From contig JAQOOI010000055.1 of assembly GCA_028554645.1 (NCBI GenBank), positions 62,001-126,000 of the forward strand: DNA of 64,000 nucleotides, read 5' to 3'. The position numbers and the translations under genes are program-made. Positions 30,332 through 52,939 of this stretch are shown here, in pieces. The notes under the pieces are model-generated. The model saw only the letters and a list, made by a program, of their open reading frames with translations, was not told the origin of the DNA and ran no database searches. The DNA comes from Omphalotus guepiniiformis. Lineage: Eukaryota > Basidiomycota > Agaricomycetes > Agaricales > Omphalotaceae. Position 1 is the first letter of the stretch. The number at the start of each line of letters is the position of its first letter.

Positions 30332-30859
30332 GCATAGTGTGCTGAGATTGGTTGTCCTTCGGTGATAGAAAATTTCTTTCGGCATTGATAGGGTATTACG
30401 AACCTGGAATCCGTTTGGATCGCGTGGATGAAGCTTATAATAAGTACTGCGCGCGCACATAATATGATGCATAATTACGAATGGTTTCACGGTTGGTTTA
30501 GGTTTGGTACAACACGAAATTGGCACGACTTTTCAAGTTTCTCCTGTATTTACTATTTCCTAATTATTTGTAGCATGTTACTTGTTATCGCCGCTTTGGG
30601 CGAAATTGCTGGCATACGACATCATTGAGGGTTCTCCTTTGTTTCGTTCGGATGTTTTGGAAGGTAGCACTACAGAGAACGTGCCACTCATAAGCAGCCG
30701 TATACTGAAAAAGTTCATTAGTTTATTGTCGAGTGAGAGACAGGGTCATGGAACGCCTATATGCTCACAGGGACCCAGAAGGTATAGAATGATTTGCTGT
30801 ATACATAGTGAGAGAAGACCATCGGTATCGGTGCTATAAACGACGTGTGAGTAGAAGAA

Positions 30860-32351: not shown

Positions 32352-34927
32352 ATGCAGTTGTCCCTGGCCCTTTCTTGTTTACTCGCCCTGGTAGCTACAC
32401 CTGCTGCATCTCAGCAGATATGGGATATTGTAGGTTTTCTATTGATCTTATGAATTATTAGGTCCAAGGTCTACTGACGACGATTCAAAACAGTGGCAGA
32501 CGACCTGGGATCGATCTAACCTTTTCACCTCGTTGGCACCTTCAACGCCCATCAACTTCGTCACGCCTAGTACCATTGGAAGTGCTGATATAGTTATTGA
32601 TGATACTTCGACGTTTCAATCTGTGTCAGGTTTCGGTGGTTCTCTCAGTATGTTCCAATGGCCCATACGTCCGCATATAGCCCCTAACACCGCTTTCGCA
32701 GCCGATTCTGCTGCTTTGACCTTGAACAATCTTAAGGTTCGACAGATAGATCGATTACAACTCACTCGATCTCACGCTTTCGGATTTAGTCGAGAAATTC
32801 TAATAATTACTGGGCGTTGTTGAATTACTTATTCTCGCCAACGGATGGGGCGAATGCGGCTGGATTGAATTACATCCGAGTTCCATTGGGCGCTTCCGAC
32901 TTTTCTGCCAACTGTACGTGTGCGAAACCTCAAATGAGCGTCGAAAGGCTAATTCTCCGCTTGTTTTAGTGTATAGTTTTGACGACTCTGATGGAGATAG
33001 CTCTTTCAGCAACTTTAACATCAATGCAGCACCTTCATATCTATTCTCAGTCTTAAAAGACATTCAATCTGTCAACAGCCGTGCGTAACTAACTCTCCTC
33101 TCTCAGCTCCCATGAGCACTAACTTTTGTTACAAGTCATCAAGGTCCACGTCCTGCCGTGGTCTCCTGTAAGCAGACTGCTATGGTATCTCTACAGTACG
33201 ATTGAGCTCGGTGTTCTTTCGTTAGCCTGGATGGATGAAGACGACTGGTACAATGGACGGCGGATCCCTGCAGCCTAGTTTTATCGGCAGCTGTGAGTAT
33301 TATTGAACAAGAGACGAGATAAGGACCTAATGACATCATAGACGCAAATTACCTCTTGAAGTGTTTGCAAGGCTTCAATAGCAATGGAATCCCACCCTAT
33401 GCGATCTCTATTCAGAACGAGCCACAGAACAGCGATTCTACATACCCGACATGCACTATCAGTGCTACAGTAGAAGCTCAGATTGGCACGGCGCTGAGAA
33501 ATCTGATGAATGCCAACGGTTTCTCTTATGTTAAACTAATCGGTGAGTCAATCAAGTTTTTTTTAGGCAGAGCGTGTCGATAGGTTTCAATAATGCAGGA
33601 TTTGATCATAACTGGGATGGAGCTGGTACCTATGCAATTCAACTAATGCAACAGGCTGGAGATTCTTTCGATGGTGTTGCCTTCCATTGCTATGGGGTAA
33701 GTATCAGGTCAAGATGCATGTTTTGTCACTCATATTGGGTAGGGATCGGTAACCGATCAAGATACTTTCCATGCACAGTATCCTACAAAAGAAGTGCGTG
33801 GTAACTTCGTGTCATTAAGACTGATATGCAAATCTTATGATCGCTTTTCAGATATATTTTACTGGTGAGCTCCTGGATTCACCAATGTGTCCATACATTC
33901 ATGTAGGCATGGACAGAATGTGCTGGAGCAATTGGTAGTGATTGGTGGAGTGATATCAAGGTTCGTCTTCTGTAGCTTGTCATTGAACGAGGTACTGATG
34001 GTTAATCTTTCAGTGGTACATGGACAATATGTATGTAACCCTCATGAACTCTCACTTTGACTCAGATTAATTTGGCACCCGGCTCCAGCTTCATCGGTAT
34101 GTCCCCAATTTGAGAAATAGTACCGCCATATCTGATTGAGACTTTCAGGTTCTATCACGCACAATTCCCACTCTGGTTTGATGTGGAACATCGCGCTCGA
34201 TGGGAACGGGAATCCCAAGCTTCCAGGTACAGATAGCTGTGGAGGTGCAGGCTGTCGTGCTATCGTTCAGGTCAACAGCGACGGAACCTACAGTGTCAAC
34301 CAAGAATGTGAGTTTCCGTTTTGAACGTTCGTGGCAATCTCAACTCATCCTCGGCATTCAGTCTACTCGATGGCTCAGGCATCGAAGGCTATTATTCCTA
34401 AAGATGTCGGCGGACCTTTCGGGCAACGCATTGGCGTTTCTGTAGGAGGTTCTATGAACTGGGGATTGATTGTTGGCGCGTACGTCACTGGACGAGTGAA
34501 TCCTAGTGACTGGTTGAGATATTCTATCGTCGTTTTGAACTGTGAGTCAATTCTCTTGCACAGATCTACTGGATTAGAACCTTGTACTGAACACACATAT
34601 CTCAGGGGCGGACAATAGCAATGTAAATTGGAATCCTCAACCCATACAGACGACAATTGAATTCCGAGGGATGCAGGTGTGTTCATATTGTTCTCGCTAA
34701 CTTTTCTAAAACTCATGGACGTGAAAGGCGATATACACCTTCCCTGTGGGCGTCACCACGCTGTGGTGGTATGGTATGTCCTACGACTTTCTTTTCCATC
34801 TGCGAAACATTCAATTTTCTGATGACCAGCTCCCAACGAGTCCTCTTTGAATGCAACCCAAGCCGAGTCGTACAAGATATACTCCGAAACCGAGGGCAAA
34901 CAACAGCCTTTGCGCTATTTCGGGTAG
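32352..34927 (+). CDS. GH30 family endo-beta-1,6-glucanase-like hydrolase, copy 2
   Basis: Near-identical paralogue of the gene at 27760, with the same intron positions and secretion signal. It keeps the family-typical S-V-S-G-F-G-G-S motif, the acid/base I-S-I-Q-N-E-P-Q, the nucleophile I-Y-F-T-E-C-A-G, and a normal TTTCAG acceptor before G-S-I-T-H-N-S-H-S-G-L-M-W-N (34142-34149). It therefore represents the ancestral state for both positions that changed in copy 1. The stop is TAG at 34925-34927, one codon earlier than in copy 1 because the penultimate codons differ. Expected role: secreted hydrolysis of beta-1,6-glucan. The transposon lies only about 180 bp downstream, in what would be its 3' flank, so its terminator region is interrupted relative to copy 1. 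Confidence 0.87.
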
Positions 34928-35102
34928 TGAACGTGGACAGATTTTTTCTTTTGGCATTGACAGGGTATCACGAACCTGGAATCCGTTTAGATCGCGTGGA
35001 TGAAGCTTATAATAAGTACTGCGCGCGCACATGATATGATGTATAATTAGGGATGGTTTAGGTTTGGTGCGACACGAAATTAGCACGACTTTTCAAGTTT
35101 CT

Positions 35103-35108
35103 CCTGTA
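35103..35108 (+). repeat. Target-site duplication, left (CCTGTA)
   Basis: CCTGTA directly abuts the left terminal repeat and is repeated directly after the right one (52934-52939). The uninserted paralogous site at 30543-30548 has CCTGTA once, with the same flanks on both sides. Confidence 0.93.
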
Positions 35109-35338
35109 TATGCTGTTCCAAATGGGAAAATATTACTCCCGCATACATTTGTTGACCCGCGCTCTTTTTCTCACCGCGCTCTTTTTTCGCATCCCCCGCG
35201 CACTTTTTTCTCGCATCCCCCGCGCACTTTTTTTTTTCCGCGCACGCACCTTTTCTTTTTCTCCACATACTTATTTTGTATTCAATTGATTTTAAACTGC
35301 AACTAATCTGATTTGGTCAAACTGCCAGTGATAGTGTG
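35109..35338 (+). repeat. Left terminal inverted repeat
   Basis: Matches the reverse complement of 52706-52933 almost base for base; similarity fades after 35338 but continues weakly to about 35348. It holds two direct copies of CGCATCCCCCGCGCAC followed by T-runs, plus a third partial copy, so the terminus itself has short subterminal repeats with strong strand asymmetry (C and T on this strand). Confidence 0.93.
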
Positions 35339-35581
35339 GTAGAAGATGTGCTGTACGGAAAAGACAGGCAAGGCACGGTGATTCTTAAGATAAAAGCTAG
35401 AATGAGAGTGTAGTGGTAGTAGATAAGCTGTGTCGTGATGAAAGGGGGAAAAGGAAGGTGAAAGTGGGTATTGAATTAAGGAGAGTAAGAGTAAGAGTGG
35501 ATATCATTCTGAGTGAGAAAGCAAACATTAAGATTGGGTATATTAGGAAGCAAGGAAGGAAGGAAGAAAGCAAGCAATGGA

Positions 35582-37489
35582 TTAGAGAATGAAATCATCG
35601 TCATCATTTGGATTGAGACCATCCAAGCGGTGATCTCGAACAAAACAGAACGAAGAGTCTTGAGAACTCTTAAGTAAAGGTTTAGATTCATCTTCAATAT
35701 CATACAATGACGATGACGATTTTCGTGGTAACTGCGCTCCGGGAGGTGTTCCAGGACCAAGAGGATATGAAAGTGATGTTTTTGAAGTACTCACGACGGG
35801 AGAAAGTTCGTCAGAAGTCTCTTTGACTGGAGCTTGGATCGCTTTATATGTTCTTCCTACAGCTAACAATCAGCATGATAGATACTACAAGAGACAATAG
35901 TGAGCATACCAGTGATGGCCAGTCTGCGCTTCTTCAACGGCTGAGGGCTATCCTCCAGTTCCTTTGAGTAGTCTTTATTCTCATCTTGGCCATGGCTACG
36001 TTTCCTGCTGCCGCCAGTAGCAAGCTGTGACCGCGTAATTCTAGCAGTTGGTAAAGCTATATTGGAAAGCAAAACTCTTTTTAGATTTAGTAAATGAAAA
36101 AATTAGTTGAATACCTGGCAAACATTTGATGTCAGAATCACTACTAGTCGTCAATACTTCTATAGGATCCTTTCTCGCTGACGTGGACAGCAATTAGCCT
36201 GAAGACTGTGGGAAATATTCATTGAGACACTTACCGCGCTGAGGCTTTTTACCCTTTCTATCCTTGAAGCTAATTCCTTTGGTTGGGCGAGATAAACGGG
36301 ATGGACGGGAAGGTTCCACTTTGGAACTGGAAGGTAATGCAACCAATGATTCACCAGACGATCCTAACTTCCAACTAGCCAAAGTAGAAGAATCGATGCG
36401 ATTCCTCATAACTAGGAATATACAACAGAATATCATTCATCTTTCATCAGCTACACAATCAAGGTAAACACATACCGATAATAATCATGCTCTCTCTCCA
36501 GCCCACACGAGATGGTCCTCGGTTACGAAAAAGCATTTGCCCGTCACAGGGGAAGACAGTGTCAGAAACAACTAGTCGACCACGCTCACGTGTTGCAATG
36601 AACGCTATAGGATCTTCACCTGTCAAGGTGCTATTTTGAAACGTTGGTGTGTTCTCAATATATTCCATTGGTTTTGGCAAAAGCTTCTTGAATGCTGCCA
36701 GTGTTTCATCGGCTGTCCATCCATGACTAATCTCAAATCCTTCTTTGGTATTGACGACAGCCAAACCATTTTTCTCTAGTTTTGTAATCTTGATAGATGA
36801 AAGAACTTTGGAAACTTTGTCGTTGGCTAAGCGGAGTACAATTTTTGACTCTGAGTCTGTTCCTTCATCTTCAGTATCTTCATCCTCGTCACTGTCATTG
36901 GCTTTGTCCAATGGCAACTCGGTCTGCAAAACATCAAGAATATCAACTGTTTAATTGAAGCTAAGCTAGATAAAGGACTTACCTCTATCAATCCCTCAGT
37001 CAAGACAACAATAATCATAACCTTAAATTTCTCAGCGTCCTAAAATTAGGGGTCAGAAAAACTATTTGCAAGAAGATAAATATTAAAGTATACCTCTGTT
37101 TTTCTTCCTGTCTTCTTTTGATTTGCTGAAACAGTGCGACCTCTAGTGAGGCCTTTGTTGGTTTCCTTTCGAGCAGAAGCAATAGCAACACTAGAGCTGG
37201 ATATGCCAGAAGCATTGGCAGCCTTCAAAAGTCTGTCGACCAGTCGGGTTCCAGACTTCTTCGCTTCAGTAGAATATTTTCGAACTGTTTTCAGTATTGG
37301 TGAAGATATTACTCCTTCATTGCTGCTGTCATCTCCAGACTCGTTAGCATATTCAGTGTCAGCAGCATCTGAAGTGTCTTCTTGTGTGCCACTCGCAAAC
37401 AGTGGAGACTCGCAACTATCTTCTTCTTAAATAGATTAGAAAGCATAATTATTTGAGAAGACAAGCCAACTACCTGAGTCAGAATGCAT
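35582..37489 (-). CDS. Acidic, probably nuclear protein of the transposon
   Basis: A multi-exon gene read leftward from ATG at 37489 (M-H-S-D-S, first exon 37474-37489) to TAA at 35582. The N-terminal part is acidic and Ser-rich (E-E-D-S-C-E-S-P-L-F-A, A-N-E-S-G-D-D-S-S-N-E-G) then basic. The middle has an acidic run (D-E-D-E-D-T-E-D-E-G) before a small folded region containing I-S-H-G-W-T-A-D-E-T-L-A-A-F-K-K-L-L-P-K-P and D-P-I-A-F-I-A-T-R-E-R-G-R-L. The C-terminal part has nuclear-localisation-like clusters (G-S-R-K-R-S-H, L-K-K-R-R-L) and ends N-D-D-D-D-F-I-L. I do not recognise its function. It resembles unnamed proteins that recur in Agaricomycete genomes. Its place next to the integrase, transcribed the same way, suggests a transposition accessory or a DNA-binding partner. 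Exon limits are approximate. Confidence 0.6.
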
Positions 37490-37640
37490 GAAAAGTAGAT
37501 GATGGTGATGGGTATAAAAAGTAGTGAAAAAGAGAGATTGAACAATTCAACTTAAGCTTGCTAATTATGTACGTCAAATATATAAATGGTCACACTTATC
37601 AAAACTCCTCTAATTCTGCATTTCAAAGCTGTATTTATTA

Positions 37641-39630
37641 CTACGACTCCAAGTTCTGAAGACATTGCATAAGATGTAAAGCTTGTACCCATAATTCTGC
37701 TCTTGGACGCCATATTTCATCAGGTAAGGATATGCGGAGCTCCTTTCGAGAATGGCGTCCTGAACGAATAAGCTCAAAAGAAGGATAACCCTCATCACCC
37801 CATTCCTCTCTACATATACCATATCCCAATGGAATCTCATTACGCTTGTTCATTATTGATAACGCCTCTTTGAATGTATCAATAGACTGATTATCTGAAA
37901 AAGGATTAGAGTGATCGGGCGTGTTGACTGCTTCAAGATGGATGTTGTGATCATGATCAGCTGCAATATCATCTTCAATGAAGATTGCTTCCGAGTCATC
38001 ATCATCATCATCATCACCATGTCCAGCACCTGTTTGACCTGGATGTCGAGTAATAGGAACTCCATGAACTCCATAGTACTTGTCGATAATATCAGGATGA
38101 AGTCCTTCACAATCATCAATGTAAATTCCATGTTCTAAACGGCCCAAAAAATATAGGTCCTAGAGCAAGATTAGATTTAAATTATAACTTAAAGAGATAA
38201 GACTCACATTTGGGCTCATATTCTTTCCAAGTCCAGATATTGGATGAGCGTTCCAATTTTGTTGAAAAGCTATGCAGTCTTGATTAATACTGTCAAGAAA
38301 CAAAAGATGAAGCAGCCAAAGATGATGAGGGTTTTTGCGGTCTAGATAGTGTAATCGTTCCAATCGGAAGAAAAAGGCTCTCCATGCACGTGCACAATAT
38401 GAGCCAACTTCAACCCATAACCTCTCTATGCGGGTATTGTGGGTAGAAGATCCCCACATAAAGCTTCCTCTGTTTAACCCCCTTCGCATAATCATGAGTA
38501 CTGAGACATCGCGGTTTTCCCTTCCGCGATCTCCCCTGACTCTTGATGGCCATCCAAATTCATGAACAGCAGATAAAAACATGTCGAGTACTGTTGAGGC
38601 ACGGTTATTAGTGCTGGCCTGAAGGCCTGTAACCTACTCAGAATTAGATATAACTGTTTTGAATAGTGAATAGTAACGTACTGTTCGAGAATAACCATCA
38701 ATACAACCATGTATAACAATTCCCCATAAAATAAGCTTATGATGACCATCGATGTGCCATAAAGCATTTGGACGAGAAACAAAATAAGCTCTGCGACTTT
38801 TTCTTTGACGACAACGTTGTCTAAGAGCTTGTCTGAGGCGATCAACACGCCTAATAGAGTGTATCACTCTATGTCTCTGAATACGCAGCCCATGCTGACG
38901 TAGATAGCCAATAAGATATCGGATCCCTACTTCAGGCCTCTTTCGACGAAACCGCCTAATCAAGATATCAAGATCATGATCTAAAATATCTGTAAAGCCA
39001 CGCTTTAGACCATATTTCTTCAAGTTCCATCGTAGTGTCTTGGATGAGAGATGCAAATGTTTTGCCAGTTTCTCCAATGTTATATGATATCTTGGATTTA
39101 TAGCCTCTTGCAAAAAGGCTCGGTTGATTTTCTTCCGAGGCCGCCCTGGTCTACCTGTTCTTTCCACAGTTACAGGTCTTATGAATGTAACATTGTGACT
39201 CTCTCTATAAAATGTTAGTTACTAGGATGCCAGGAGGATAATATACTGCTTACCCCTGTGTCGCAGTAACTTCAGCTTCTGTAAGTTGAACAAACAAAGC
39301 CCAAAATTCATTGGCAATTTCATTCAACCATTCAAAAGGAATTTCTTCTGCTTCCATACAATCCTCTAAATCAAGGATTAGTGGGATTGCCTCTTCAGCA
39401 ATCACTGTTTGATGAAATCGAATGCGATGCAAGTCAATATCCTGTAGATTGAGAGTACCATAGGCATTCTGATAGACATTGCATAAAATCTGAAAAGCAT
39501 GATGCAGAGCTGGAGACCATGGATTTTGTTTTGATGGAAGAGTAGGTAAAGGCATTTTAGAGTAGGTGATATGAGCCTGCAAGCTGCAAGCTGTATTTAC
39601 TGCGCCTGGTAAGCTAAGAGACACAGCCAC
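37641..39630 (-). CDS. rve-like DDE integrase of the transposon
   Basis: The likely transposase, in about four exons read leftward. An N-terminal helical region (39250-39630) is followed by a helix-turn-helix part (G-R-P-G-R-P-R-K-K, L-H-L-S-S-K-T-L-R-W-N-L-K-K-Y-G-L) and an integrase core with the full triad: Asp in L-W-H-I-D-G-H-H-K-L (about 38750), Asp in R-V-R-G-D-R-G-R-E-N (about 38530) and Glu in N-T-R-I-E-R-L-W (about 38425). A C-terminal domain (37641-38147) contains an Asp run and ends R-P-R-A-E-L-W-V-Q-A-L. The exon joints, for example GGT TAT TCT CGA ACA to GTT ACA GGC, are GT-AG and in phase. The family is the rve-type core found in many Agaricomycetes and in fish and cnidarian genomes. 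All catalytic residues are present, so the element may still be mobile. The start may be 39630 or the internal Met at 39555. Confidence 0.85.
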
Positions 39631-39709
39631 AACTCAATACGCCTGATTTTCCAGGTCCTGAAGTTTCTCCTGGCTTTAAACAGCAACATTGTCCTCAGAT
39701 ATCTATAAC

Positions 39710-40775
39710 ATGTCTCAGTCATCACTAGCTTTACTATCCTCTCATGCAAATGACTCAAGTGAAGCAATACCACATCGTCGCTATGGAAAATATCTTATTA
39801 ATGAGAAGCATTGGTGCGAAGATGGACCCTTGGTTTTTCTTGTAAGAAATATCTATCATGAATCTAGATACTTTCTGAAATTTGTTTATAGTTTGAAGAT
39901 ACACTCTTGAAGATATATCCAGATCTCTTGACTGAGACTTCTGAAGGCTTTGCACAGATACTTGGTATACGTTCTATAATTGCAAGTCAAGATTCCAATC
40001 TGGGTACCATGGATAATCCCATTTGTATTCCTGGTATCACAAAGATTGAAATTGAAGATTTTTTAGATTGGCGAAAGAAATGGTATGTCTCAAAACTCAG
40101 AATTTCAAGTTGCTTTGTCTAATAAATCATATTTAGTTCCTGGTCAACGGAACCTATGCCAGAATCTAAACTATACAATATCCTAAAGGTTTCAAGCAAG
40201 TGGATATATGTCCACCAGGTGTTGAGTATGCTATGTATGGCTACGAACGGCTTGGAATTTCACCCTCCCGTCGGCTGGAGCTTGCTCAAGAATTTGGCTT
40301 GACACCTTGGGTGGCACCTGCAATTAACGAGTTATTCAAATCTCCTGTCACTTCCTTTACTCCAGAAGAAGAAAAACAAATTGGAGATCGAGCATTCAAA
40401 CTAATGGCGAAAGCACAGCTTCTGATTGAGATGGCTCGGCGCCGCAAAGGTGGTGTGCCTCCAGATCTTCAAGAGGGCCATCCAGACTGTGTATATTCAG
40501 GTCAACGGCATGTTCAATCACGATGTGCTCAAGCCTGGGATGAGAATTGGTGGAGATATTTTGGACGCGAGCTTCTTCATCCCAAAGTTCCTTTAGCATT
40601 TTCTGCAGCTGAAGAGTTTCTTGGGAAGCAGGAGTTCCCTGGGGTATCACCTTCTTGCAAAGCAAAGGGAATTCAACTGGTCACAGGGACTCTTTCAGGC
40701 TTTGAACAGCGCTATCTAGATCGTATCATATTAGATATTTGTAACCATCTTCCTATGAGCCAATTCTCTGGATAA
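39710..40775 (+). CDS. BTB/POZ-like protein of the transposon
   Basis: Three or four exons: 39710 to about 39841, about 39893-40082, about 40138-40218, about 40222-40775, ending TAA. The second exon begins F-E-D-T-L-L-K-I-Y-P-D-L-L, and later P-I-C-I-P-G-I-T-K-I-E-I-E-D-F-L-D-W matches the BTB pattern of a strand, a helix and the F-x-x-F-L-x-x-[IL] segment. The C-terminal part L-G-I-S-P-S-R-R-L-E-L-A-Q-E-F-G-L-T-P-W-V-A-P-A fits the BACK-like tail usual in Agaricomycete BTB proteins (W-V-x-P-A-x-x-E-L, then an acidic E-E-x-x-x-I-G). The role of such proteins is unknown; many are adaptors for cullin-3 ubiquitin ligases. Whether it belongs to the element's own gene set or was captured is open. 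The assignment is by motif shape, not by strong identity. Confidence 0.55.
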
Positions 40776-41422
40776 TTTCTTCATTGTATACTTTATATAC
40801 TTTATAAGCAGAAAACAATATACCTTCATTACTACCACATACACTAAATATAGTATAGATGTTTTCTTTTTTTTTCTGCAAAGCTTTGACTTTCGTCAAC
40901 AATGATAATCACTGGTGTTTGCATTGATGACTCAAGATCACCTGATACTTGCATGACATGTGCATGCATGATTGTCACGTTGTGTTGTGTTGTGTCGCGG
41001 TCAGAATCAACAAAGTCATGCTAGAAGTCACCACAGCTGTCAACAACTCTGAAGTATTTAAGGTGAAGAACTTTCTTCTTTATCTCCTTGTTCCGTACGA
41101 CTATCGCCCGTTGGGTCTTAGAATGGGGGAAACCTCTATACGACGGTCTATCTCGTCCTCTGCTCCTTACCGTTACACAATTCCTTACCGTTACACAATT
41201 CCTATGCATGACCTTACTGTTGTTACTGAAGGTGAGAGTCAGCAAAGATGAAAAGACAGATGTAGTCACGGCGGTTGATCACGGTGCGTCTTCTCGACCT
41301 CTGGGGTACGTTAAGCTACTTACACTCTTGAATAGGTTTGGATATCATGTTGCAACGGAAAGCTCGCAATGCTGTGAGGCATGATTCTTAAGGTGCGGTG
41401 ATGCTGACTGCTCAATAGAGCA
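40776..41422. promoter_or_regulatory. Upstream region of the transposon-borne IRE1
   Basis: No gene is seen. An 18-bp unit CCTTACCGTTACACAATT is repeated in tandem at about 41165-41200, about 220 bp before the IRE1 ATG. Somewhere in this interval the AT-rich element sequence gives way to the more GC-rich, host-like IRE1 sequence; the junction cannot be fixed by eye. Confidence 0.4.
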
Positions 41423-44400
41423 ATGACACCGTCGAACATACATTTCAACTTCATCTTCCTGTTGTCGCTCGTGCTCGTCTGCATCGCGGACATCGTCTCT
41501 ACCTATCGTCATAATAGTGACCATCTTCAGCGCCATGACCTTGCTATAACTCCAAGGTTCTCTAGGCGAAGTCTGCCATCTTTGGGAACCGCTGGCACAC
41601 AACAGAGCAGTTCGGAGGCGTTTGATGACCCTCTAGGCGACTCGGAACTACTGGATGTTGTTTTAGTGGCTTCTGTGGATGGAAAATTCCATGCACTCAA
41701 CCGGACTTCTGGACAGGTGTTGTGGTCCATGCCATCCTTTGCGCCAGGTCAAAACCAAAACAGGATGTTTGAATACGGAAATATGACCTCGTTATATCCT
41801 TCAACACTAGCTCCTCTCGTACGGACGGTACATCCTGAACATGAACACGACGAGAACATATATCTGGACAGCGACACCGTTCATCCAGACGATGAGATAT
41901 ATATAATTGAACCCCAGTCTGGGGTGATCTATATCCTACCGTCTCATCCCTCTTCATCCCAAAATCCTCCCCTTCGTCGCTTCCCTTTTACCATGACAGA
42001 GCTCGTGGACATGTCACCCTTTTCCTTTGCCGACCCAGATGGACACTCACGGCACTTCGTGGGGCGAAAGGAGACCAGCTTATTGGTAGTGGAGCTGGAG
42101 ACGGGAAAGGTCAAAGCCAGTGTAGGAGGCGAGTGTCCTTGGGATCCGTATGCATTCCAGGATTTTCAGGAAGATCACGAGAACGGAGAGGACTACGAAT
42201 TAGATCTTGACGCATTGGAACACAGAGGGCAGTATCTGTATTCCAAAATCAAAGAAACGGCTTTCTCTCCTTTCTCTAGGCAGAAAACAAGCACCTCCTC
42301 CTGGTCCAGTAGAGTCCCGAGCACTCAAGTATTACTCCTCCAGTTTTGGCTGGCGCAATTCCCATAGTCGGTACCACTCTCGTCCCCCTTCCGAAGACTC
42401 AGAGGACGACAGCGAGTCTAGTTTTAGTCCCCTTTCCTCCGCCACCTCAGTTGATGATACTCCTTCTTCCGCTTTGCGACCAACACCTAGACCTAGACTT
42501 CACGTTGCTCAATCACTAGCCTCTAACACACGTGCTCGTAGTATCCTTTCTGATCCTCTAGAGTCAACTGGCAACAACCCACATGCGCTTGCTCTTGCAG
42601 CCTCCCGTTTGCGCGCCCCAATTCTCCGTGTTTTTGTCCCCTGCACAGAAATGGGCCTGACACGTAGGAACAGAGGCGAGGGCTCACCGGCACTAGAAAG
42701 TTGCAAAGACGAGCTCATCAAAGCTGGTCTGTGGGAGCATCTTAGCGTTGGTGACGTTGTGTGTAACCTAGGCTTTGTCCCTCCGCTTCCAAGTCAGAGA
42801 GAGCGCACGCCTTCGCCTCGCAGTCTACGTTCGCGATCATCCACTCAATCTCAGTCATCTCAGTCACCTCCAGGCGCCACTTGGCTCTTATTCACTGGTG
42901 AACGCCTTGTGCCGTACTGCCCATCAAACTTCTCTCCTTCTCTCGCACTGCTACCCCTAGACAACCCACTTACACTCCCAGGTCCTCAATATTTCGATCA
43001 CCTTTTTGTTGAGCCTGCAAACTATCCTGTGGTGCAAGGACAGAGGCCTACACAAACCGGCCCGAACATTCGTCTTGTCATTCCCTATATCCCGTACGTC
43101 ATTCCGATCCATGCTCTACGGCGCACGCCAGAGATGACCCTTATGGAAATGCCATTGCGGGTGCCGTCACCTCATACTCCTGGCGGGTTTGCTGTGGTGA
43201 GAAAGTGGGTTTGGGTGACCAGAGTTCACGTTCGAAGGGATGATATTCCGTTAAGTTTCTTATCCGACGCTTGTGCAGGTGAAGGTGGAGAACATTCGGG
43301 GTTGGGTATTGGTTGGGAAGGCGAGTGGATTCTTGAAGGGGATGGGACTAAGGAAGGGCGGGAGCTGCTTTTGGCGTGCTTGGACAAGAGTAGTGGTAAG
43401 AGGACAGAATGGGAGGTGGTCAGGGAAAGGATGAAGCCTGGCAGAGTTTGGTTAAGGTAGGCTGCATTCATTTATCTGCTTCTTCCTCGTTTCTCTTATC
43501 TGTGTCTCCAAACTTCTTTCATATAACCTAGAATGATTTGCTAATCAACCATCTCGACATTCCTCGTTTTCAGGTTGATTAACTCCTCACTCCCCGCACT
43601 CAAGGCGCCTGTCTGTCAACCAATTAACAGTGTTGAAGATACGGACACTATGTACACGGATAATCCTCCTGTACCACCACCGAAACCCGACGTGGAGGCG
43701 ATGTCTGCGATTCCTGCGCCAGTAGCTCCTCCTGCAACACCTACTGCGTTTTCCCTTAGATTATCACATTTCAATTCATACTCGACCGCCGTCTCGTACC
43801 ACAGCCAAGTCACGCCGTATACATGCTCCCCCGGTTCAGAACCTTTCCTTTTCGACCTATGGGCCCAACAATCAAGACGCCGTTCTACAAGCTTCCTACA
43901 CGCGTACTAAGGACAATGCTTATGTCCAAAGTCTGCCAACCGGCGAATTAATGGCTTTCCGCGCTCGGGACACGAACATAGGAAGTCCCAAGATTAATGC
44001 TAATGATATGCCTGTGTTATGGTTTCAGGAGTTTTCTAATCCGATGTGAGTCGCTATTCAATATCGATCTCCGACCGTGCTTGTTTTCATTTTCATGTTT
44101 TATTTCGACAACTTCAGCTGACACACATATCTAGAGTTGCCACCTTCGACGTCCTTCGACGTCCTCCAGCGCCATCTGCACGCCTATATGGCGAAGATGG
44201 ACTACACACATTTGTTCTTCTTCAGCCACAACCTTCTTTGTCAGACTTCCATCCCTCCTTGTCCCTTCAGAGTCCCCGGTCTCTCTTACCCAACGTCGAC
44301 TCCGCTTATGTCGGCATAGTTGAGGAGACGGGCAGCCTTTTCGCTATGAGCCCAAAGAGGTTCCCTTTTGTTGCATTTGGAGGTTTTGGACATACTGGCC

Positions 44401-47208
44401 TCGGCACGACAGGAAGAAAACATTCAATTGATGCTGCTCCTGCTGCCAATCGTGGCGGGGACGAACCCACACAACAGGAAGGGGATGACGAACGGGAGCT
44501 TCCGATCGATGTGGATGAAATAACGAGGCAGCGCAAGCTGCGCTTAGAGCGTGAGCAAAGAGAGAAGGAGCAACAAGCTCAGCGCCGATACCAAGATACG
44601 TGTCACTCTGAGTCGAACACATTTGACTTGCGGTGTCTAGTTGGCGTGAGAAAGCTGGAAGGAGGAGCTGATGGTGCACCTGGCGAGGGGCTTGAGGAAG
44701 GGAGGTGGAGCAGGCTTTTAGATGCTCCGCCGAGCTCTAACTCTGCCGGACCGTCAGATAATGGTCAAATCAACGTTTCAGAATCGCAGTCGAAACTAGA
44801 ACTCTCCGAGGATGAAGATGTTAGAACAAATTCAGGTCAACTCGGCGATATTTCGAGGAAAGTTCAGTGGAAATGGGAGTTCATATTCGCGCTTCTGATT
44901 GGGCTGGTGGGAGTGTCAGGTGTGGTAGGAAGATATTTCTTCATTCCAAAGGTCAATATTGCCACCGCCAACACTACGGAGGTGGCAAGTTCTCTCAGTG
45001 CTGATAGTCCTTCGACAGCCAATGGGGATCAGAATTCAGTCAGCCCTATGGCTACTCCTTCATCTCCTAAGCCTGCATTCAACTCGGAATCGTTTGGCTC
45101 TCCTAACAACTCATCTCATCCCCCTCCTGATGTCATCAAGCGGCAGTGCAAAGGCTCCGTTCCTCCTCCACCGATGTCAAACGCTGCTGATGCTTCAGGA
45201 CCTGCTTTCACCGATAATGGAGATGTTATAGCATATTCCACGTGTCTAGATGATGGTGACGACAGCGATGGAGAAGGCGACGATGCGGAAGGCGGTGACA
45301 TTGATCCTGCCGATGCTGTCAGTCGTAGAAGGAGAACAAGGCGCAAGAGGGGAAAGAAGAAAAAGGGTGGAGCTGCATCCGCGGTGACTCTTGTGGCCGG
45401 GTCTGAAGTCGAGGGTGCTGGGACACCGAGCGGTATCCAAAATGTCGCTAGGCCGACGACGCCGAAGCCAACCACACCTGCACAATCTTTGCCTCTGTTC
45501 GATGCACCCCCGAGCGTACTTGTCATCCCACCTACTCCCTCGTTATTAATACCCACGCCTACAACCATGCAGGAGCAGCAACCATCTCCATCGAGTTTGG
45601 TTGTTTCTGAGACCGTTCTTGGTACGCTATTATTATCTGTGCTGTTTTCGTGTCTTAACCATTGATCCTAGGCTTTGGATCACGTGGTACAGTTGTCTTC
45701 CATGACTCTCTTCAAGGTCTCTCGGTTGCCGTGAAGCGACTGCTCCGAGATTTCGTCACGCTTGCTTCCCATGAAGTCAGCATCCTCCAAGAAAGCGACG
45801 ACCACCCGAACGTCATCCGGTATTACTATCAAGAGAGCCGCGCCAATGTTCTTTATATTGCTCTCGAGTTATGCCCAGGGAGTCTTGCAGACGTCATTGA
45901 GTCCTCGGGGGATCTCGGGGGTATCGGTGTCATTGGTGGTGAGGAGGCGAAAAGTCAAGAAGAATGGAGGGAAATTCGGCAAGCCATACTAGGAGATCCA
46001 AAGAAGGCTTTGAAGCAGATTACTAGTGGGCTCAGACATTTGCACGGTCTGAAACTCGTTCACCGGGATATCAAGCCGCAGAATATTTTAGTTGCTGCTG
46101 AACCAGGTCGTAATTTCTCCTCTTCGTCCACGTCGCTGAACAAGAGCAAAACACCTCGTGGTCCGAGCTACCGTATGCTAATCTCTGACTTCGGGCTATG
46201 CAAAAAGCTCGAAATGGATCAGACCAGTTTTTTGCCCACTGCCCAAGGCGGCATGGGCGCTGGGACGTTTGGATGGAGGGCTCATGAGATTTTGAAGGGA
46301 GAAGTGAAGCTAGATGATACGGTGAATGGAACGATTGACGATGTGTCTAACTCTTCAGGAGGTACGATTATGGGCAACTCATCGATCGGTTCGAACGGCT
46401 CGTCTGGTTCCGCGAGTAGAGGTCGATCGACTCGTCTGACGAAGTCCGTGGACGTATTTGCACTTGGATGTCTATTCCATTTCGTGCTTACCGTGGGTGG
46501 ACATCCCTTCGGGGATCGATTCGAGAGGGAGGCAAACATCTGGAAAGGAGCGAAAAACCTGACCGCTTTGGAAGACAGGCTAGGCGAAGAGGCTGTAGAG
46601 GCAACAGATCTCGTGGAAGCAATGCTACATCAAGATGCTTCACAGCGGTAAGTCATTTTCTTGATGACCCCGCCTCCGGAGTACTGACATAGGCGTGTGC
46701 GGAAACAGACCAGACACCGCTGGATGCCTACTTCATCCTTTCTTCTGGGATTCTGGTCGTCGCTTGAACTTCCTTCAAGAGGCATCAGATCGCTTCGAGA
46801 TCATGTGCCGTGACCCAAAAGTTCCTCATCTGCTCGAGCTCGAGAAGCACGCGTTTAGCATCGTCGGAAATGACTGGTATTCGAGGCTAGACAAGGTTTT
46901 TATTGACAACCTTGGCAAGTTCAGGAAGTACGATGGGAAGTCGGTGCAAGATCTTCTGAGAGCATTGAGGAACAAGGTTTGTTTATGTCTCCGTTTTGCT
47001 GAACCATTCTCATTCTGGCACGTAGAAACATCACTACCAAGACCTTCCCAATAATGTCAGGAATCATCTGGGGTCTATGCCAGAAGGCTACCTATCGTAC
47101 TTCACTCATCGATACCCTCAATTATTCCTTCATGTGCATCGGGTTATTGGTTACAGCGAGCTACGCTCCAAATCAATGTTCAGGACTTATTACGAGCTAG
47201 CTGAATGA
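41423..47208 (+). CDS. IRE1: IRE1 kinase/endoribonuclease gene inside the transposon, luminal part interrupted
   Basis: IRE1 is the ER-membrane sensor of the unfolded protein response; its RNase starts the unconventional splicing of the HAC1/XBP1 mRNA. Read here: signal peptide (I-F-L-L-S-L-V-L-V-C-I-A), luminal domain start (V-L-V-A-S-V-D-G-K-F-H-A-L-N-R-T-S-G, 41423-42220), luminal continuation (L-S-F-S-T-Y-G-P-N-N-Q-D, 43760-44042), a membrane segment (F-I-F-A-L-L-I-G-L-V-G-V, about 44880), a kinase with G-F-G-S-R-G-T-V, V-A-V-K-R, H-R-D-I-K-P-Q-N and S-D-F-G-L, and an RNase domain containing L-L-R-A-L-R-N-K and H-H-Y with the catalytic Arg-Asn-His. Stop TGA at 47206-47208. Introns are kept, so it was captured as genomic DNA. 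Between 42221 and 43759 an unrelated gene fragment replaces the short exon expected to carry V-F-I-G-R-T. I could not find a splice path that keeps one frame across it, so the luminal domain is probably broken; kinase and RNase look intact. Confidence 0.88.
42230..43759 (+). pseudogene. Fragment of a conserved basidiomycete gene inserted in IRE1
   Basis: A frame open from about 42207 to 43460 and continued over an intron (about 43458-43573) encodes a protein unrelated to IRE1. Family-like motifs are A-G-L-W-E-H-L-S-V-G-D-V-V-C-N-L-G-F-V-P-P, T-W-L-L-F-T-G-E-R-L-V-P-Y, and E-G-E-W-I-L-E-G-D-G-T-K-E-G-R. These recur in a conserved uncharacterised protein of basidiomycetes. The piece lacks a clear start of its own. 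It ends in a Pro-rich tail at about 43750, where the IRE1 frame resumes after a TTTCCCTTAG acceptor. It is in a different frame from both IRE1 exons around it. It was probably captured or recombined into the IRE1 intron region, with loss of a small IRE1 exon. Confidence 0.65.
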
Positions 47209-48045
47209 TGCCCTTCTTTCTTACCTCTGCCTACTTGCATTTTTTTCCCCATCGTCACTCTTTTAGTGAATATCTTGGCCGTGGCTGTTGTGCACTTGCT
47301 GTGCTGTTGCTGTGGCATCGACTTCCGTGTTTCTTCCGTTTCTCTCGTGCTACCTCATTCCACCGCTATCTTTGTTGGATTAGTTCCCTATCTGCTCTAC
47401 CTTATTATCTCTGCTACTGCATCTGTATTTTTTCCTTCGCGCATCTCTTCGCATCGTTGCAATCATCTCGCATCTATCTGTACTTTTGGTAGGACTCCTT
47501 TGAGTCAGATGTACTTCATATACTCAAGATATCGAGGCTGGAAAAGCAATATATATTATTTTTGCTAGACACCATTATGCTGAGCATCCGGAATGTATAT
47601 ACAACTTAGTCTCTTGTAGGTGTAGACGAATATCAATATTGTAAACATTGTAAGCAAAGGATAGGACTACAACACTTATACAGATTGCTTCATTTGGGTT
47701 CTCTGCGTCCGGCAAGAGTCCTTGGTTTGTAGGGAATAGTCCTCATTTTCATTGACTTTCATTATCGCAGAAAGAGCTCCAGTGGTGGCACACTAACTGC
47801 ATCATGAACATCACAAGTCCATTTACGAACAGAACGTACGCTATGGCTCAGTATAACGTGAATAATACCGCACCGCAACCCGAATCTTATTTGACTGGTG
47901 GCTACCTTTCTTTTGCAAGGCAACATGATGGCTTACTGGTTGATTTCTGCAGACTACTTGACTGCGAATGGACCTGATGTGAACCTCGCTTTGACTTTTT
48001 GGGTGCCTGCCCCCAAACGAGCACGAGACGTGGTTGGGAAAAACA
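47209..48045. other. Spacer downstream of IRE1 within the element
   Basis: Holds the 3' flank of IRE1. No believable gene is seen on either strand; frames of about 95-105 codons overlap each other without domain signals. The right part (about 47870-48040) leads directly into the ubiquitin fragment but does not read as ubiquitin. Confidence 0.35.
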
Positions 48046-48240
48046 CTATCCGCTCTCCATCTCGTCCTGCGCCTCCATGGAGGTATGCAAATCTTTGTCA
48101 AGACCCTGATGGGTAAGATGATTACCCTTAAGGTTGAGTCTTCCAACATGATTGACAATGTGAACGCAAAGATTCAGGACAAGGAGGGCATCCCTCCTGA
48201 TCAACAACGGCTCATTTTTGCTGGAAAGCAGCTTGAGGAT
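48046..48240 (+). pseudogene. Polyubiquitin fragment
   Basis: The end of one ubiquitin unit ([10 protein letters not shown], with His for the usual Arg) is followed in frame by M-Q-I-F-V-K-T-L at 48085 and then 52 residues of the next unit up to K-Q-L-E-D, where similarity stops. Substitutions relative to the near-invariant protein include T9M, T12M, E16K, D21N, T22M and K27N. Ubiquitin hardly ever varies, so this is a decayed capture of a polyubiquitin gene. A translated frame continues to 48270 without meaning. Confidence 0.9.
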
Positions 48241-48371
48241 GTTGTCTGCATCAGGCTAGTGTTGATGTAGTCTTATCTCACAATCAATATTTGTTACCAC
48301 ACATTTACACTCAATGAATATTATGTGTTGTACCATGATATATTATAAGATACTGAATTCACCTTGGTGAA

Positions 48372-48833
48372 TTATGAAGTGCTACTAGATGACTTCCTCT
48401 GTTTCCTCTTCTGTACATCACCATCTTCCATCCTACTCTGGAACTTTTCATCACTATTTGTTGTTGTCTCAATAATATACATTCTGTCATTGTGTTTCTC
48501 TTCCAGTGCTGCTGCCATGCTGGATGCTTTCTCTATCTTTACCCTTGTAACCACCATGCTAATGGATGTACTGGGAGGTGTTACCTTTCCAAAGAGAGAG
48601 GAGACCTTTGTCAGCATAGGTGCATCACATACAGTCGATAACCCTTGTAGATAGTAAGATGTCCCTGTTTGATCTACAAACACAGGAGGAAGAACAATTA
48701 GTGATCCAACCTCGTCTTCTAATGATAAACAGAAATTCACCCCATCACAATTCTCATATCTGTGATGAACAGAAAATCCAACCCCATATCTTCTACATCT
48801 ATGTATAATGAACAGAAATTTACCCATCACCAT
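48372..48833 (-). CDS. Hypothetical ORF, low support
   Basis: A 153-codon frame on the minus strand that starts within the minisatellite. Its latter part has a helical, possibly coiled-coil sequence (I-E-K-A-S-S-M-A-A-A-L-E-E-K-H-N-D-R) after L-P-P-V-F-V-D-Q-T-G, and could be the last exon of a transposon gene that was disrupted by the tandem repeats. I do not recognise the family. It may equally be chance. Confidence 0.3.
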   Translation of the reverse strand: MVMGKFLFIIHRCRRYGVGFSVHHRYENCDGVNFCLSLEDEVGSLIVLPPVFVDQTGTSYYLQGLSTVCDAPMLTKVSSLFGKVTPPSTSISMVVTRVKIEKASSMAAALEEKHNDRMYIIETTTNSDEKFQSRMEDGDVQKRKQRKSSSSTS

Positions 48834-49590
48834 GTATCTCTTACATCTTCTATGATGAACACAAAATCCAACCTCATCTTTTACAACATCTCTATGATGA
48901 ACAGAAATTCACCTCCATCACATTGTGATGAACAAAAAATCCAACTACAACATCTATATATGATGAACAGAAATTCACCCATCACCATGTACGTCTTACA
49001 CCTTCTATGATGAACAGAAACAGAAATTCACTCCATTGCATTTCTCATATCTGTGATGAACAGAAAATCCAACTACAACATCTCTATGATGAACAGGAAT
49101 TCAACCCATCACATTCTTATATCTGTGATGAACAGGAATTCAACCCATCACATTCTTATATCTGTGATGAACAGAAATTCACCCATCACATTTCTTATAT
49201 CTGTGATGAACAGAAATTTACCCATCACATTTCACATTTCTTATATCTGTGATGAACAGAAATTCACCCATCATCATGTATCTCTCACATCTTCTATGAT
49301 GAACAGGAATTCAACCCATCACATTCTCATATCTGTGATGAACAGAAATTCACCCATCATCATGTATCTCTTACATCTTCTATGATGAACAGAAATTCAA
49401 CCCATCACATTTCTCATATCTGTGATGAACAGAAATTCACCCATCATCATGTATCTCTTACATCTTCTATGATGAACAGAAACTCACCCAATCACATTTC
49501 TCATATCTGTGATGAACAGAAAATCCAACCTCTATGATGGACAGAAATTCACCCATCACATATCTGTGATGAACAGCACATTCAGATAGA
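48715..49590. repeat. Minisatellite, about 21 units of 32-50 bp
   Basis: The core GATGAACAGAAATTCACCC recurs about 21 times, alternately followed by CATCACATTTCTCATATCTGT or CATCATGTATCTCTTACATCT-type spacers, giving higher-order pairs of about 85 bp in the middle. Units are imperfect (AACACAAA, AACAAAAA and GGACAG variants) and no gene spans them. The array lies between the ubiquitin fragment and the oxygenase gene. Spacers are variants of one another rather than unique, so it is not a CRISPR array. Confidence 0.9.
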
Positions 49591-50002
49591 TCATGTACCT
49601 CTTCTATGATAAACAGACAAGTCAACACCCGATATCTTCTACAACATCTATGATTGATGAACAACACATCAACCATGTATCTTATACTACTAATAGAATA
49701 ATGTGGATAATAACTTGTATAAGTACCACTGAGAATTTTGATATCTTTCTACCTCAGTTCCAACTCATGTCTTCTGCCAATTACTTCACTCTACCATATC
49801 CTCAAATTGATCTTGACTATGGCAATCCTCTTCAATCTATCATTGATGAATTACTTCAAGAACACCTGGACATGCTCCATGGCACTCGTGCAGGATTACA
49901 GGCCTGGAGGCACAAATGACACAACAAATTGAACTCTGACAGCACCCTGGTGAGTATAGCTGTTGACTACTTGATTTAGTTCTCATCCACTTTTTGTTTC
50001 AG

Positions 50003-52639
50003 ATGCAGTCTTTGTATATGTGGATGTTTCGTGTCACTCACTGTGACTTAGAAACAACTACAGTGCCCAAGACTGATGTTCTTGATGTGTTTCTTAGTGT
50101 TCAAGTACTTATCAAGTATGGCCAAGAGGCACAAGCACTATCAGAGTTGGCAGCTTGGCAATACTATGTGTCTTTGAAAGTAAGTTGTTATTATTATTTA
50201 CTAAACTACACTTACACTACACTTACTCTGTATAAACAGTATGCCTCTGATCAAAGGAACTTGATCACTGAAATGAAGAACAACATCGATGATCTTCTTC
50301 AAAACAGTACAGACATTGCCTCTACTCCCATATTCCAAAATTCCTCCACTTCCTCTCCTAACAATAAAAACCAATATTTTGTAGCATGTCAAAGATGGCA
50401 AAAGATTTTGTCTTCTCATCTTCTTATTTCAGCAGATTCAAACTTGTCTCTCAATGACCACATAGAGACTGACATCTTTTCAAGGTCATTCATTCAGAAG
50501 CAGAAGGACATTGTGGATGTCTTGTTAGAAATGAAGAAAATTTCAGCAAGGGACTATTGTAATGATGAATTTCTTAAAGCAATTCATGTAAGATCTTCAA
50601 CCTTTTTTTTAAAGGCACTGCTGACTGCATATACTATCTCTAGGATTCTGGACTTGCAAAGTCCATTCTTGAGATCACACATCCTCACTACTATGTGAAA
50701 TATTATGCACCACACAACAGTGCACTGTTGCGTCTACATGCATTTGGCATTATTCTAGGTGAAGTTCTAGATTCATGGACACCTTCTTTAAGGGAAAAGG
50801 CTGTAGAAAGGCCCTCCATGAAAGAACTCTATATCACCAAGGTAGAAACTTTCTGATTTTTCAAAACTAAACTCCATTTAATGATGCTGTGAATAGAAGA
50901 CTGGTAGACCTATGTCTAAGGGGTCCCATCTTCTTGCTGCCATGAAACAATATCCACTATTGATCCCAAGAGTGTCAAACCCCCAGTCAATATACTTTCT
51001 CTGCTCTCTGGACAACTTTCAGAATGCATGGAGAACATGGCTTTCATGGTACCTTGACTTCTTAGGTTTTCAGGTATGTAGTGCTACACTACTCAATCAT
51101 ATAACATTACTGAAGCTTTCTAGGTTGAAGATGAGAATCCAGAGTCTCTCTACAGAGATTTTATGCGCCATGTTCAGTCACTCTCTGCCATAGACAAAAA
51201 CACTGGTCAAACATTTTTGCATTCTATGAACCTCTCCACCCACCTTCTGATGATCATTGAGAGAACCATGGCCCTTAGGACTTTGAAGAAAAACCTTGAG
51301 GAATCTAAACATGACTACCGTATCTTCAACTGTCCTCGTTGTGTCAACAAGCCTGGGAACCTCAAATGTGTGCAGAAAATTATCAAGCCTCGTGTTGAAA
51401 ATCAACAATGGCTTGCTAAAATCACTGGTGCAGGTGTCACTGAAGCACCTGAGCATGACAGGCTGAGGCCACATTTGGTATGTGTATTATTTTGATATAT
51501 TTTAATGCTTAGTAAAACATTGTTCAGCCTCAGGGCAAAGAGAAAAGTACTCCTTTGTACACCCCTCAAGAATTGCATCTAGAGTGCATTGAGGCCAATG
51601 CTACGATCCTCAATCAATGCGGGAAACAAATCATCTTAATCTATGAACAGGAGAATGGCCCTCTTGTAAGTATTGTTTTCAAATTGCTAATTTTATCTAA
51701 AGTCAAATATCATATTTAGATTGATTTTGTGTGGTTCAATGCATTTGATTCAACAACCTTTAATCAGCTTATTCAGAATCTGATTATGGCCTCTGGGGTA
51801 AAACCTGTTCGTCGAGGAGGAAAGTTTGATTTCTGGTCAAGTGGACAGATGGTACCATTTGGTGCCAGAGCTCCAAGTGGTGGACGTCGCGGAGACACTT
51901 ATGTGGCCTATGCTGGCATTGAGGGACAGACAACAGAAGGCATTGATATTCTGTTTCGTCATGCTGAGGTGAGTCTTGAATGTTACTACAATATCCAGAT
52001 AAACTAATATATAATAGACTTCGATGATCATTCTTGAAACAGCAAAAGTAGTTCACAAAACACTCTATGATGAGCTTAAGGCTGCTGGTGAAGCTTGTGA
52101 ACGAGTGGGCCTGGCAGGGGTAAATCTGTTTCAATGTTATAATTACATGGCTCCTCTTCATGTTGATGATGATATTGTGCGATGCTTGTGCACTCAGTTG
52201 CAAAAGCAAGCCAATGATCTCATGCATGAGTTTGGATTCTGCTCTCCAGAGTATGGTTACTTTATCCATACTAGGCCAAACACCCTATGGTAAGTTGACT
52301 CTTCTTTTTTTTCTATCTGTCAGTTTGCTTATATTATATCTTCAAAGGTCTTTCGATCCTAAAAGACTTCACGGGACTCTCTTGCCATCCAATTCATCCA
52401 CTCAGATGCTACACAAAAGTCTTTATCAAACCAGCCACACAAGAGGTAGCCAGAGGCCAGCAGATGCTCAAGCTCATAATGTGAATCAGAATGTACATGC
52501 ATCAATTCCAAACATTGGGACGGTTACGACTACTGGGACCCATGTTACCGTTCGCAAACGGGACCAGGCCCGTGCTGAAGCTCACGATAGGGTAAGACAG
52601 AATTACCCTCTCCGAAGAGCTATCTGGGATCGTACTTAG
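50003..52639 (+). CDS. Predicted Fe(II)/2-oxoglutarate oxygenase of the transposon (TET/JBP-like fold)
   Basis: A gene of about eight exons (introns near 50180-50240, 50588-50643, 50841-50897, 51074-51123, 51479-51528, 51666-51720, 51968-52018 and 52291-52347). The N-terminal two thirds have no known domain; a small C-P-R-C...C cluster (about 51335) could bind zinc. The C-terminal part reads N-Y-M-A-P-L-H-V-D-D-D (about 52140-52172), E-F-G-F-C-S-P-E-Y-G-Y-F, T-R-P-N-T-L-W and S-F-D-P-K-R-L-H-G-T-L-L-P. An H-x-D followed about 50 residues later by a distal His after an F-x-x-x-x-L-H-G strand is the iron-binding pattern of a double-stranded beta-helix oxygenase. TET/JBP-type enzymes, which oxidise thymine or 5-methylcytosine, are known passengers of DNA transposons in basidiomycetes; that assignment here is inference. 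The first exon is uncertain: upstream sequence 49755-49960 looks coding but holds a stop and a frame change. TAG at 52637-52639. Confidence 0.6.
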
Positions 52640-52705
52640 TAGACTGTAGAACTGTCGTAGTAGACTGCAGAACTATCAAAGTAATATATATGGTCATCTT
52701 CTATT

Positions 52706-52933
52706 ACACTATCACTGGCAGTTTGACCAAATCAGATTAGTTGCAGTTTAAAATCAATTGAATACAAAATAAGTATGTGGAGAAAAAGAAAAGGTGCGTG
52801 CGCGGAAAAAAAAAGTGCGCGGGGGATGCGAGAAAAAAGTGCGCGGGGGATGCGAAAAAAGAGCGCGGTGAGAAAAAGAGCGCGGGTCAACAAATGTATG
52901 CGGGAGTAATATTTTCCCATTTGGAACAGCATA
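52706..52933 (-). repeat. Right terminal inverted repeat
   Basis: Reverse complement of 35109-35338 with only a few differences, mainly in A/T run length. It ends ...GGAACAGCATA at 52933, abutting the target duplication. Confidence 0.93.
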
Positions 52934-52939
52934 CCTGTA
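52934..52939 (+). repeat. Target-site duplication, right (CCTGTA)
   Basis: CCTGTA followed by TTTACTATTTC, the continuation of the empty site seen at 30543. Confidence 0.93.

Follow-up and report, generated by a model that had tools for sequence, protein, structure and literature searches.

A 64,000-bp stretch of the Omphalotus guepiniiformis genome (contig JAQOOI010000055.1, positions 62,001 to 126,000; hereafter the window, numbered from its first base) contains a DNA transposon of 17,825 bp, bounded by terminal inverted repeats (TIRs), whose limits at 35109 and 52933 are exact to the base. We consider it very probable that this element is of the IS3EU/GingerRoot kind, that it captured pieces of host DNA through the repair of breaks or stalled copying, took up later pieces within earlier ones, and moves with a cargo that decays. 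DNA copied from elsewhere in the genome accounts for 7,573 of the 17,825 bp (42%), lying mostly end to end between approximately 41.0 and 48.7 kb. The features of the element are listed in Table 1.

Table 1. Features of the transposon and of its target site (C plus a number denotes a contig of the same assembly)
Feature	Positions	Strand	Remarks
Unoccupied target CCTGTA in tandem paralogue	30543..30548		
Target duplication CCTGTA, left	35103..35108		
Left TIR	35109..35348	+	240 bp, starts TATGCTGTT
Open frames of left-hand gene	36459..37426	-	no Pfam match
DDE transposase gene, PF24764 rva_4, IS481/IS3-type	37641..39555	-	~589 amino acids, four exons; exon borders modelled
Gene head-to-head with transposase	39710..40775	+	no Pfam match
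Piece from C20:2516406-2516575	41005..41171	+	83%; no gene recognised
Piece of VWA-domain gene, C17:1053371-1053532	41231..41390	+	90%, sense
Piece with 5' part of IRE1, from C63	41387..42220	+	97.5%
Piece from C73:499714-501233	42220..43739	+	1515/1520 (99.7%); replaces 97 bp inside the IRE1 copy
Piece with rest of IRE1, introns and 3' flank, from C63	43739..47747	+	93.7%
Piece from trehalase locus, C56:29061-29298	47750..47987	+	93%
Piece of polyubiquitin, C22 ~2.430 Mb	48049..48241	+	82-86% to donor repeats
Piece from C22:2430852-2431050, just downstream of polyubiquitin donor	48238..48438	+	82%
Piece from C22:2433487-2433615, further downstream of polyubiquitin donor	48441..48572	+	86%
Piece beside mitochondrial-carrier frame, C22:581469-581602	48574..48702	-	78%, antisense to that frame
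Minisatellite, units ~39 and ~87 bp	48715..49530	+	common to the sibling on C13
Multi-exon right-hand gene (modelled)	49593..52639	+	partly common to the sibling on C13
Right TIR	52695..52933	-	239 bp, ends AACAGCATA
Target duplication CCTGTA, right	52934..52939		

Limits of the element

The six bases duplicated on either side of the element stand unoccupied in a tandem paralogue of the insertion site. With the element removed, the left flank aligned to this empty site at 902 of 956 positions (94.4%) and the right flank at 149 of 160 (93.1%), with the join at base 30548. The element is thus a real TIR DNA transposon with exact limits, and an earlier reading made from the sequence alone (the sequence-only reading), which had proposed these limits together with the CCTGTA duplication and the empty site, was confirmed in these respects. 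That reading also described TIRs of about 229 bp; they are present and slightly longer, the two arms being identical in 237 of 240 aligned columns, with two substitutions and one gap column. When the left arm was compared with the whole genome (42.5 Mb in 80 contigs), three places were found: the two ends of the element and a 72% match at C13:314307, which begins at the same terminal base. The TIRs are therefore not confined to this locus; their presence here alone is what the sequence-only reading had named as a ground for doubt. The nine terminal bases are common to the element and to five related complete elements (see below), each of which has its own duplication. The exact duplications, the empty site and these five elements argue against an assembly join at either limit. 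Both the empty and the filled target lie in a 4.6-kb tandem duplication (27745-35108).

Class of the element

The transposase gene is open and retains the D, D and E residues. Two of its exons matched the Pfam family rva_4 (62 and 136 bits), the rve family remaining below the cut-off (E 0.097); of the rve-type integrase proposed in the sequence-only reading, the integrase-like transposase stands and the rve assignment does not. Profile matches were obtained with IS481 (E 2.3e-13) and IS3 (E 2.1e-11), and among 26 transposase homologues 26 matched IS481 and 25 matched IS3 at E 0.001. The closest homologue, from Tetrapyrgos, is 52% identical. A search of PDB sequences gave no match with the transposase alone and three with the transposase alignment, none of them below E 0.07. 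In Foldseek searches the top match was a CRISPR-associated Tn7-type transposase (E 3.1e-5), and a second comparison placed retroviral integrases first; the likeness is that of the common integrase-core fold, which does not separate IS3EU from its Tn7-type or retroviral relatives.

The termini are TA..TA (TATGCTGTT..AACAGCATA) in all six complete insertions examined, and the target duplication is 6 bp long in five of them and 7 bp in one, the inner copy on C76. IS3EU/GingerRoot elements are described as having TA..TA ends, duplications that are usually 6 bp long and a DDE transposase of the IS3/IS481 type (PMC10045372, PMC12730594), and in ends, duplication and transposase type our element fits this printed description. 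The rust IS3EU set has TIRs longer than 30 bp and extra genes, with TET/JBP between the transposase and an alpha-kinase. The window element differs in carrying many abutting host pieces and in its ends, TATGC..GCATA instead of the TAYGG..CCRTA of the TET-bearing rust subgroup, and it was hence not filed there; no TET/JBP or alpha-kinase was recognised in the element frames scanned.

Polintons (Mavericks) are marked by genes for DNA polymerase B, a packaging ATPase and a capsid. No Pfam match to any of these was found in 20 of the 117 open frames and two spliced models of the window, the remaining frames being mostly short; the absence of polymerase and packaging genes noted in the sequence-only reading is borne out in the frames scanned. 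Helitrons have neither TIRs nor target duplications, and the element has 240-bp TIRs and the CCTGTA duplication.

Host DNA in the element

Ten pieces of the element were matched to other places in the genome. At the seven joins that were inspected, the matches overlap by 1-4 bp in four cases and leave 1-2 bp between them in three, the join between the IRE1 and trehalase pieces being the least crisp. In two 5-kb stretches of the same window, which served as the control, outside matches had at most 87% identity (69 bp), and the longest extended over 517 bp at 75%. For both IRE1 and the C73 piece, the donor is the one strong match in the genome besides the element itself. The VWA, trehalase and mitochondrial-carrier donors were recognised by Pfam matches to donor frames (the carrier exactly at the cut-off; trehalase on a neighbouring donor frame, the piece itself giving no match), and ubiquitin by a match to a frame of the window. 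No Pfam family was matched by the scanned portion of the C73 donor gene, whose product looks like an F-box protein. Pieces in or next to recognised frames are in the sense orientation relative to the plus strand of the element, except the carrier piece, whose donor site is 1.8 Mb from the polyubiquitin locus on C22. The sequence-only reading called the element far larger than is usual for a TIR transposon; what it missed is the copied host DNA to which the size is largely owed, related elements being 10.3-10.6 kb long.

Some of the order of capture can be read from the pieces. Because the C73 piece takes the place of 97 bp of IRE1 (17737-17833 in local C63 numbering), it was captured after IRE1. 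In the sibling on C13 the ubiquitin piece directly abuts the minisatellite; the three other C22 pieces were thus probably added between the two in the lineage of the window element, the alternative being their loss in C13. Compared with the donors, 48053-48702 has 65 C-to-T or G-to-A changes versus 12 in the reverse direction, 40 of the 65 being at CpG, as would be expected of unselected DNA if the cytosines of such elements are methylated. The corresponding counts are 63 versus 51 in the longer IRE1 piece and 4 versus 1 in the C73 piece. The identity of a piece to its donor was dropped as a firm capture clock, since constraint differs among the pieces and the IRE1 donor allele had apparently diverged from C63 before capture.

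The IRE1 copy

The largest part of the cargo derives from the stress-sensor gene IRE1, identified by its kinase and 2-5A-type ribonuclease (RNase) domains; among the 646 PDB sequences that matched, the 16 best are all IRE1. The copy is almost complete and its introns are kept, so that RNA-mediated capture was rejected. The resident gene on C63 reads as an open model of 1353 amino acids across an intron. The possibility that this resident gene is the broken copy was likewise discarded: the shorter C63 stretch is the normal gene, and the foreign piece is in the element, where the 1.5 kb from C73, with a gene frame different from that of IRE1, splits the lumenal region. Among 120 listed homologues of the resident IRE1, those of Collybiopsis, Lentinula and Rhodocollybia have the highest identity (73-76%), and the first by E-value among the matches listed is from Blastosporella (65%). 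Together with the Tetrapyrgos match of the transposase, these homologues suggest a host that is probably an agaric close to the Omphalotaceae.

In the kinase and RNase domains, 18 amino acids differ between the element and C63. Judged by six close homologues, 13 of these changes occurred on the element side and three on the resident side, with two undecided; four of the 13 fall in rows labelled lumen/linker, the border having been set at residue 895. Of the other lumen/linker rows, some of which are alignment artefacts beside the insert, 24 favour the C63 state and 12 the element state, 29 are undecided and four have no column. When 115 homologues were aligned (five of the 120 were left out for length), seven sites were found changed in the element at which all homologues covering them (114 or 115) agree with C63; they include the P of what we take to be the APE motif. 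One invariant site, position 1320, is changed in the resident gene. The element copy retains HRDIKPQN and DFG, and the compared exons are free of insertions and deletions apart from the ragged edge of the replaced stretch. The ratio of nonsynonymous to synonymous divergence (dN/dS) over kinase and RNase is 0.14, with dS 0.117 (18 and 36 changes), which is below 0.5 with p 3e-5; in exon 1 dS is only 0.04. In the comparison of 41387-47747 with C63:601903-606800, the kinase and RNase part thus has about 12% synonymous divergence, yet the C73 piece, although a later capture, matches its donor at 99.7%. No IRE1 closer to the element copy than C63 was found in the assembly.

Taking these changes together, the IRE1 copy appears to be decaying and is probably not working cargo. 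A donor allele that had already diverged from C63, followed by decay, would be compatible with both the changed invariant sites and the low dN/dS.

Relatives in the same genome

A genome search with one transposase exon gave 17 matches, the window included. When 10-36 kb around six of the other matches was inspected, five proved to be complete elements, belonging to two families. The C20 family has two members (C20:561046-571541 and C76:446557-457106, which over 10,156 bp are 99.92% alike) and the C18 family three (C18:1301632-1311948, C69:129321-139637 and C76:436318-457189; 99.8% alike over 10.2-10.3 kb). All five start with TATGCTGTT and end with AACAGCATA, as the window element does, and their duplications are CTCAAC, GTGGGTT (7 bp), AAAGAC, TTGGAG and GTATGT. 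They are 10.3-10.6 kb long, except one of 20.9 kb that has another element inside: on C76 a C20-family copy is nested, with the 7-bp duplication, 83 bp from the right end of the C18-family copy. Full-length relatives with 6-bp duplications, for which the sequence-only reading had proposed to search, do exist; these are other families and not further copies of the window element. The sixth match, on C72, contains two stops, and the 10 kb inspected there showed no inverted repeat. Partial and more distant matches (35-43%) on C6, C12, C21, C22, C41, C77 and C71 and at C20:397315 suggest further families of the superfamily in this genome.

The sibling on C13 (C13:312801-322800) has one TIR, at C13:314307, together with portions of the element's right-hand region at about 91% identity (82.8% at the ubiquitin piece). 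It has no part equivalent to 50947-52246, and no second end was found within 28 kb beyond the TIR.

Copied DNA was also searched for in 5.2 kb of the C18 element and 4.7 kb of the C20 element, donors being known by their match coordinates. In the C18 element eight stretches match other places: C75, C17 (two, approximately 0.7 kb apart), C62 (two parts), C45/C9, C61 and C65 (the last at only 70%). Of the seven pairs of neighbours, four adjoin to within 6 bp, and the other three are separated by 17, 25 and 189 bp. The match to C62:1126392-1127657 is split by a 93% piece of C45/C9, a pattern that repeats what is seen with IRE1 and C73, and the paired C17 pieces parallel the forward skips seen on C22, as far as can be judged from match positions. 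The three C18-family copies have the same copied pieces at three targets. In the C20 element a 14-3-3 copy, recognised by Pfam on the element's own frames, matches C62:458099-459789, and the other matches are to C8/C6, C69 and C20. These comparisons make a good case for a mosaic of host DNA in the C18 element and a weaker one in the C20 element.

Other genes of the element and the window

When the frames of the left-hand gene were compared with the accessory frames in the related families, no significant similarity was seen (best E 0.16). The related families have another frame at the place of the gene that is head-to-head with the transposase, and here similarity is only suggestive (E 0.055 and 0.14). 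The right-hand gene has seven homologues in Agaricales (Paramarasmius, Marasmius, Lentinula, Mycena) and no known domain by Pfam or NCBIfam; the structure predicted for one homologue was of too low quality (mean pLDDT 35) and was not used. Rfam and tRNA scans of the window gave no matches. Elsewhere in the window, stretches located at 31.2-31.4 kb recur at 55.4-59.7 kb, and frames for FAD-binding and berberine-bridge-like oxidases occupy 58647-61059.

Discussion

The process that we envisage begins with breaks or stalled copying inside the element, which would be healed by copying unrelated host DNA, the pieces becoming joined nearly end to end. Synthesis during repair or replication would switch template to host DNA via a few bases of homology, could hop along one donor, and would end back in the element. 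Later events opened earlier cargo, as is shown by the 1.5-kb C73 piece in place of 97 bp of IRE1. Cargo does not stop movement, as the C18-family pieces at three targets show; it appears to decay after capture, having no demonstrated use to the element.

Several observations weigh against this scheme. The IS481 and IS3 scores of the transposase (50 and 44 bits) are far under the curated cut-offs of 224 and 160, which belong to bacterial models. The low dN/dS of the IRE1 kinase and RNase (p 5e-6 against 0.55) does not agree with plain decay of a copy taken from the C63 allele, and the divergence from C63 requires either that the donor allele was already different or that the copy was under constraint for some time. 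Two intervals between pieces, 41172-41230 and 47988-48048 (59 and 61 bp), have no donor match. Matches of the C20 family have an identity of only 67-83%, and 14-3-3 is the sole piece identified there. It is the structure of the joins, and nothing else, that points to copying as the mechanism. Finally, a single complete copy of the window element was found, so that this element may not have moved since its latest capture.

The size of 17.8 kb, the 6-bp duplication, the long TIRs and an integrase-like transposase that scores below the curated cut-offs might be taken for signs of a large integrase element that forms a class of its own, or of a Polinton relative, and the sequence-only reading had indeed suggested a new type of large integrase-driven element of mushrooms. 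Ends, duplication and IS481/IS3 match led us to reject this: they fit IS3EU/GingerRoot as printed, a group already in Repbase, related complete elements are 10.3-10.6 kb save for one nested pair, 42% of the length is copied, and no Polinton hallmark is among the frames scanned. We therefore regard a new class as very improbable. That the element is a chimera of the assembly, or a set of transposons nested in one another, and does not hold captured DNA is hardly credible. Many junctions do lie in a short stretch of an element with one complete copy, and some sources in the other families (C45/C9, C8/C6) are two-copy places that might themselves be repeats. Against this, the pieces differ from their donors by 0.3-22%, so that misplaced reads do not explain them, the copied part of the C18-family elements is present at three loci, and the IRE1 and C73 donors are single strong matches.

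Two further possibilities concern IRE1. That it is working, selected cargo, which aids the host or the element under endoplasmic reticulum stress, could be argued from the lack of insertions and deletions in the compared exons beyond the ragged edge, the low dN/dS, the retained HRDIKPQN and DFG and the fact that the resident gene, too, is changed at one invariant site; with the lumenal region interrupted in another frame, seven invariant sites altered including the P of APE, 13 element-side changes against three, and a resident IRE1 on C63, we find it quite improbable. The second would add to our preferred explanation, capture of host DNA by an IS3EU-type element: the IRE1 piece may come from another species or a deeply diverged strain, the element having entered by hybridisation or horizontal transfer. 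A dS of 0.117 under overall constraint, balanced directions of change (63 versus 51) and the 99.7% identity of the C73 piece speak for it. A single, highly diverse species would yield the same pattern, and dS in exon 1 is only 0.04, so that we hold this addition to be possible, if rather unlikely.

Plant Pack-TYPE elements (PMC8903248) and animal Pack-TIRs (PMC8277862) are likewise TIR elements with copied pieces of host genes. The plant elements are described as non-autonomous, whereas the window element has an open, predicted DDE transposase gene with D, D and E; such elements look like Pack-TYPE elements that keep their transposase gene. Joins in animal Pack-TIRs have microhomology with a median of 2 bp, for which gap-filling and fork-stalling models with template switching were proposed (PMC8277862); the joins of the window element appear to be alike. 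Most animal Pack-TIRs are hAT and TcMariner elements, and the term IS3EU is absent from the text of that report, in contrast to the IS3EU type of the window element. A Dothideomycete hAT element that captured histone H3 (PMC6710886) is similar in that a fungal DNA transposon took up a housekeeping gene whose copies then decayed; there it was one gene in hundreds of copies inactivated by repeat-induced point mutation, here it is many pieces in few copies of an IS3EU-type element. Gene capture in an agaricomycete is also described for Pleurotus Helitrons (PMC4289320), which are rolling-circle elements, unlike the window element with its long TIRs, DDE transposase and target duplications. An IS3EU element with a mosaic of host-gene pieces was not found in titles or the beginnings of abstracts among the matches listed from the open-licence PMC literature; PF24764 did not occur among the matches listed there, and those for rva_4 were otherwise chance letter strings.

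The element is thus ordinary in class, while its content is unusual: although of IS3EU type and equipped with a transposase gene, it behaves as Pack elements do. Bacterial IS3 elements move by replicative copy-out, which is perhaps the mode of IS3EU too. We tentatively suggest, as a rather speculative extension, that mushroom elements of the IS3EU type, with their own transposase, collect genes systematically: their mode of movement would provoke repeated template switching into host genes, so that each family turns into a mosaic that grows, can jump and, via hybridisation, can carry host alleles between lineages.

Capture of gene fragments by TIR elements was previously described, in the reports cited above, for non-autonomous plant Pack-TYPE elements, animal Pack-TIRs and a fungal hAT element with one gene; here it is seen in a minor superfamily, in a mushroom, and with the transposase kept. 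Because the donors are traceable, the nested order of capture is readable and the C18-family copies have moved with their pieces, this genome is tractable for studying how transposons take up genes. For the annotation of mushroom genomes the finding calls for caution, as transposons can contain duplicated parts of IRE1 and other key genes.
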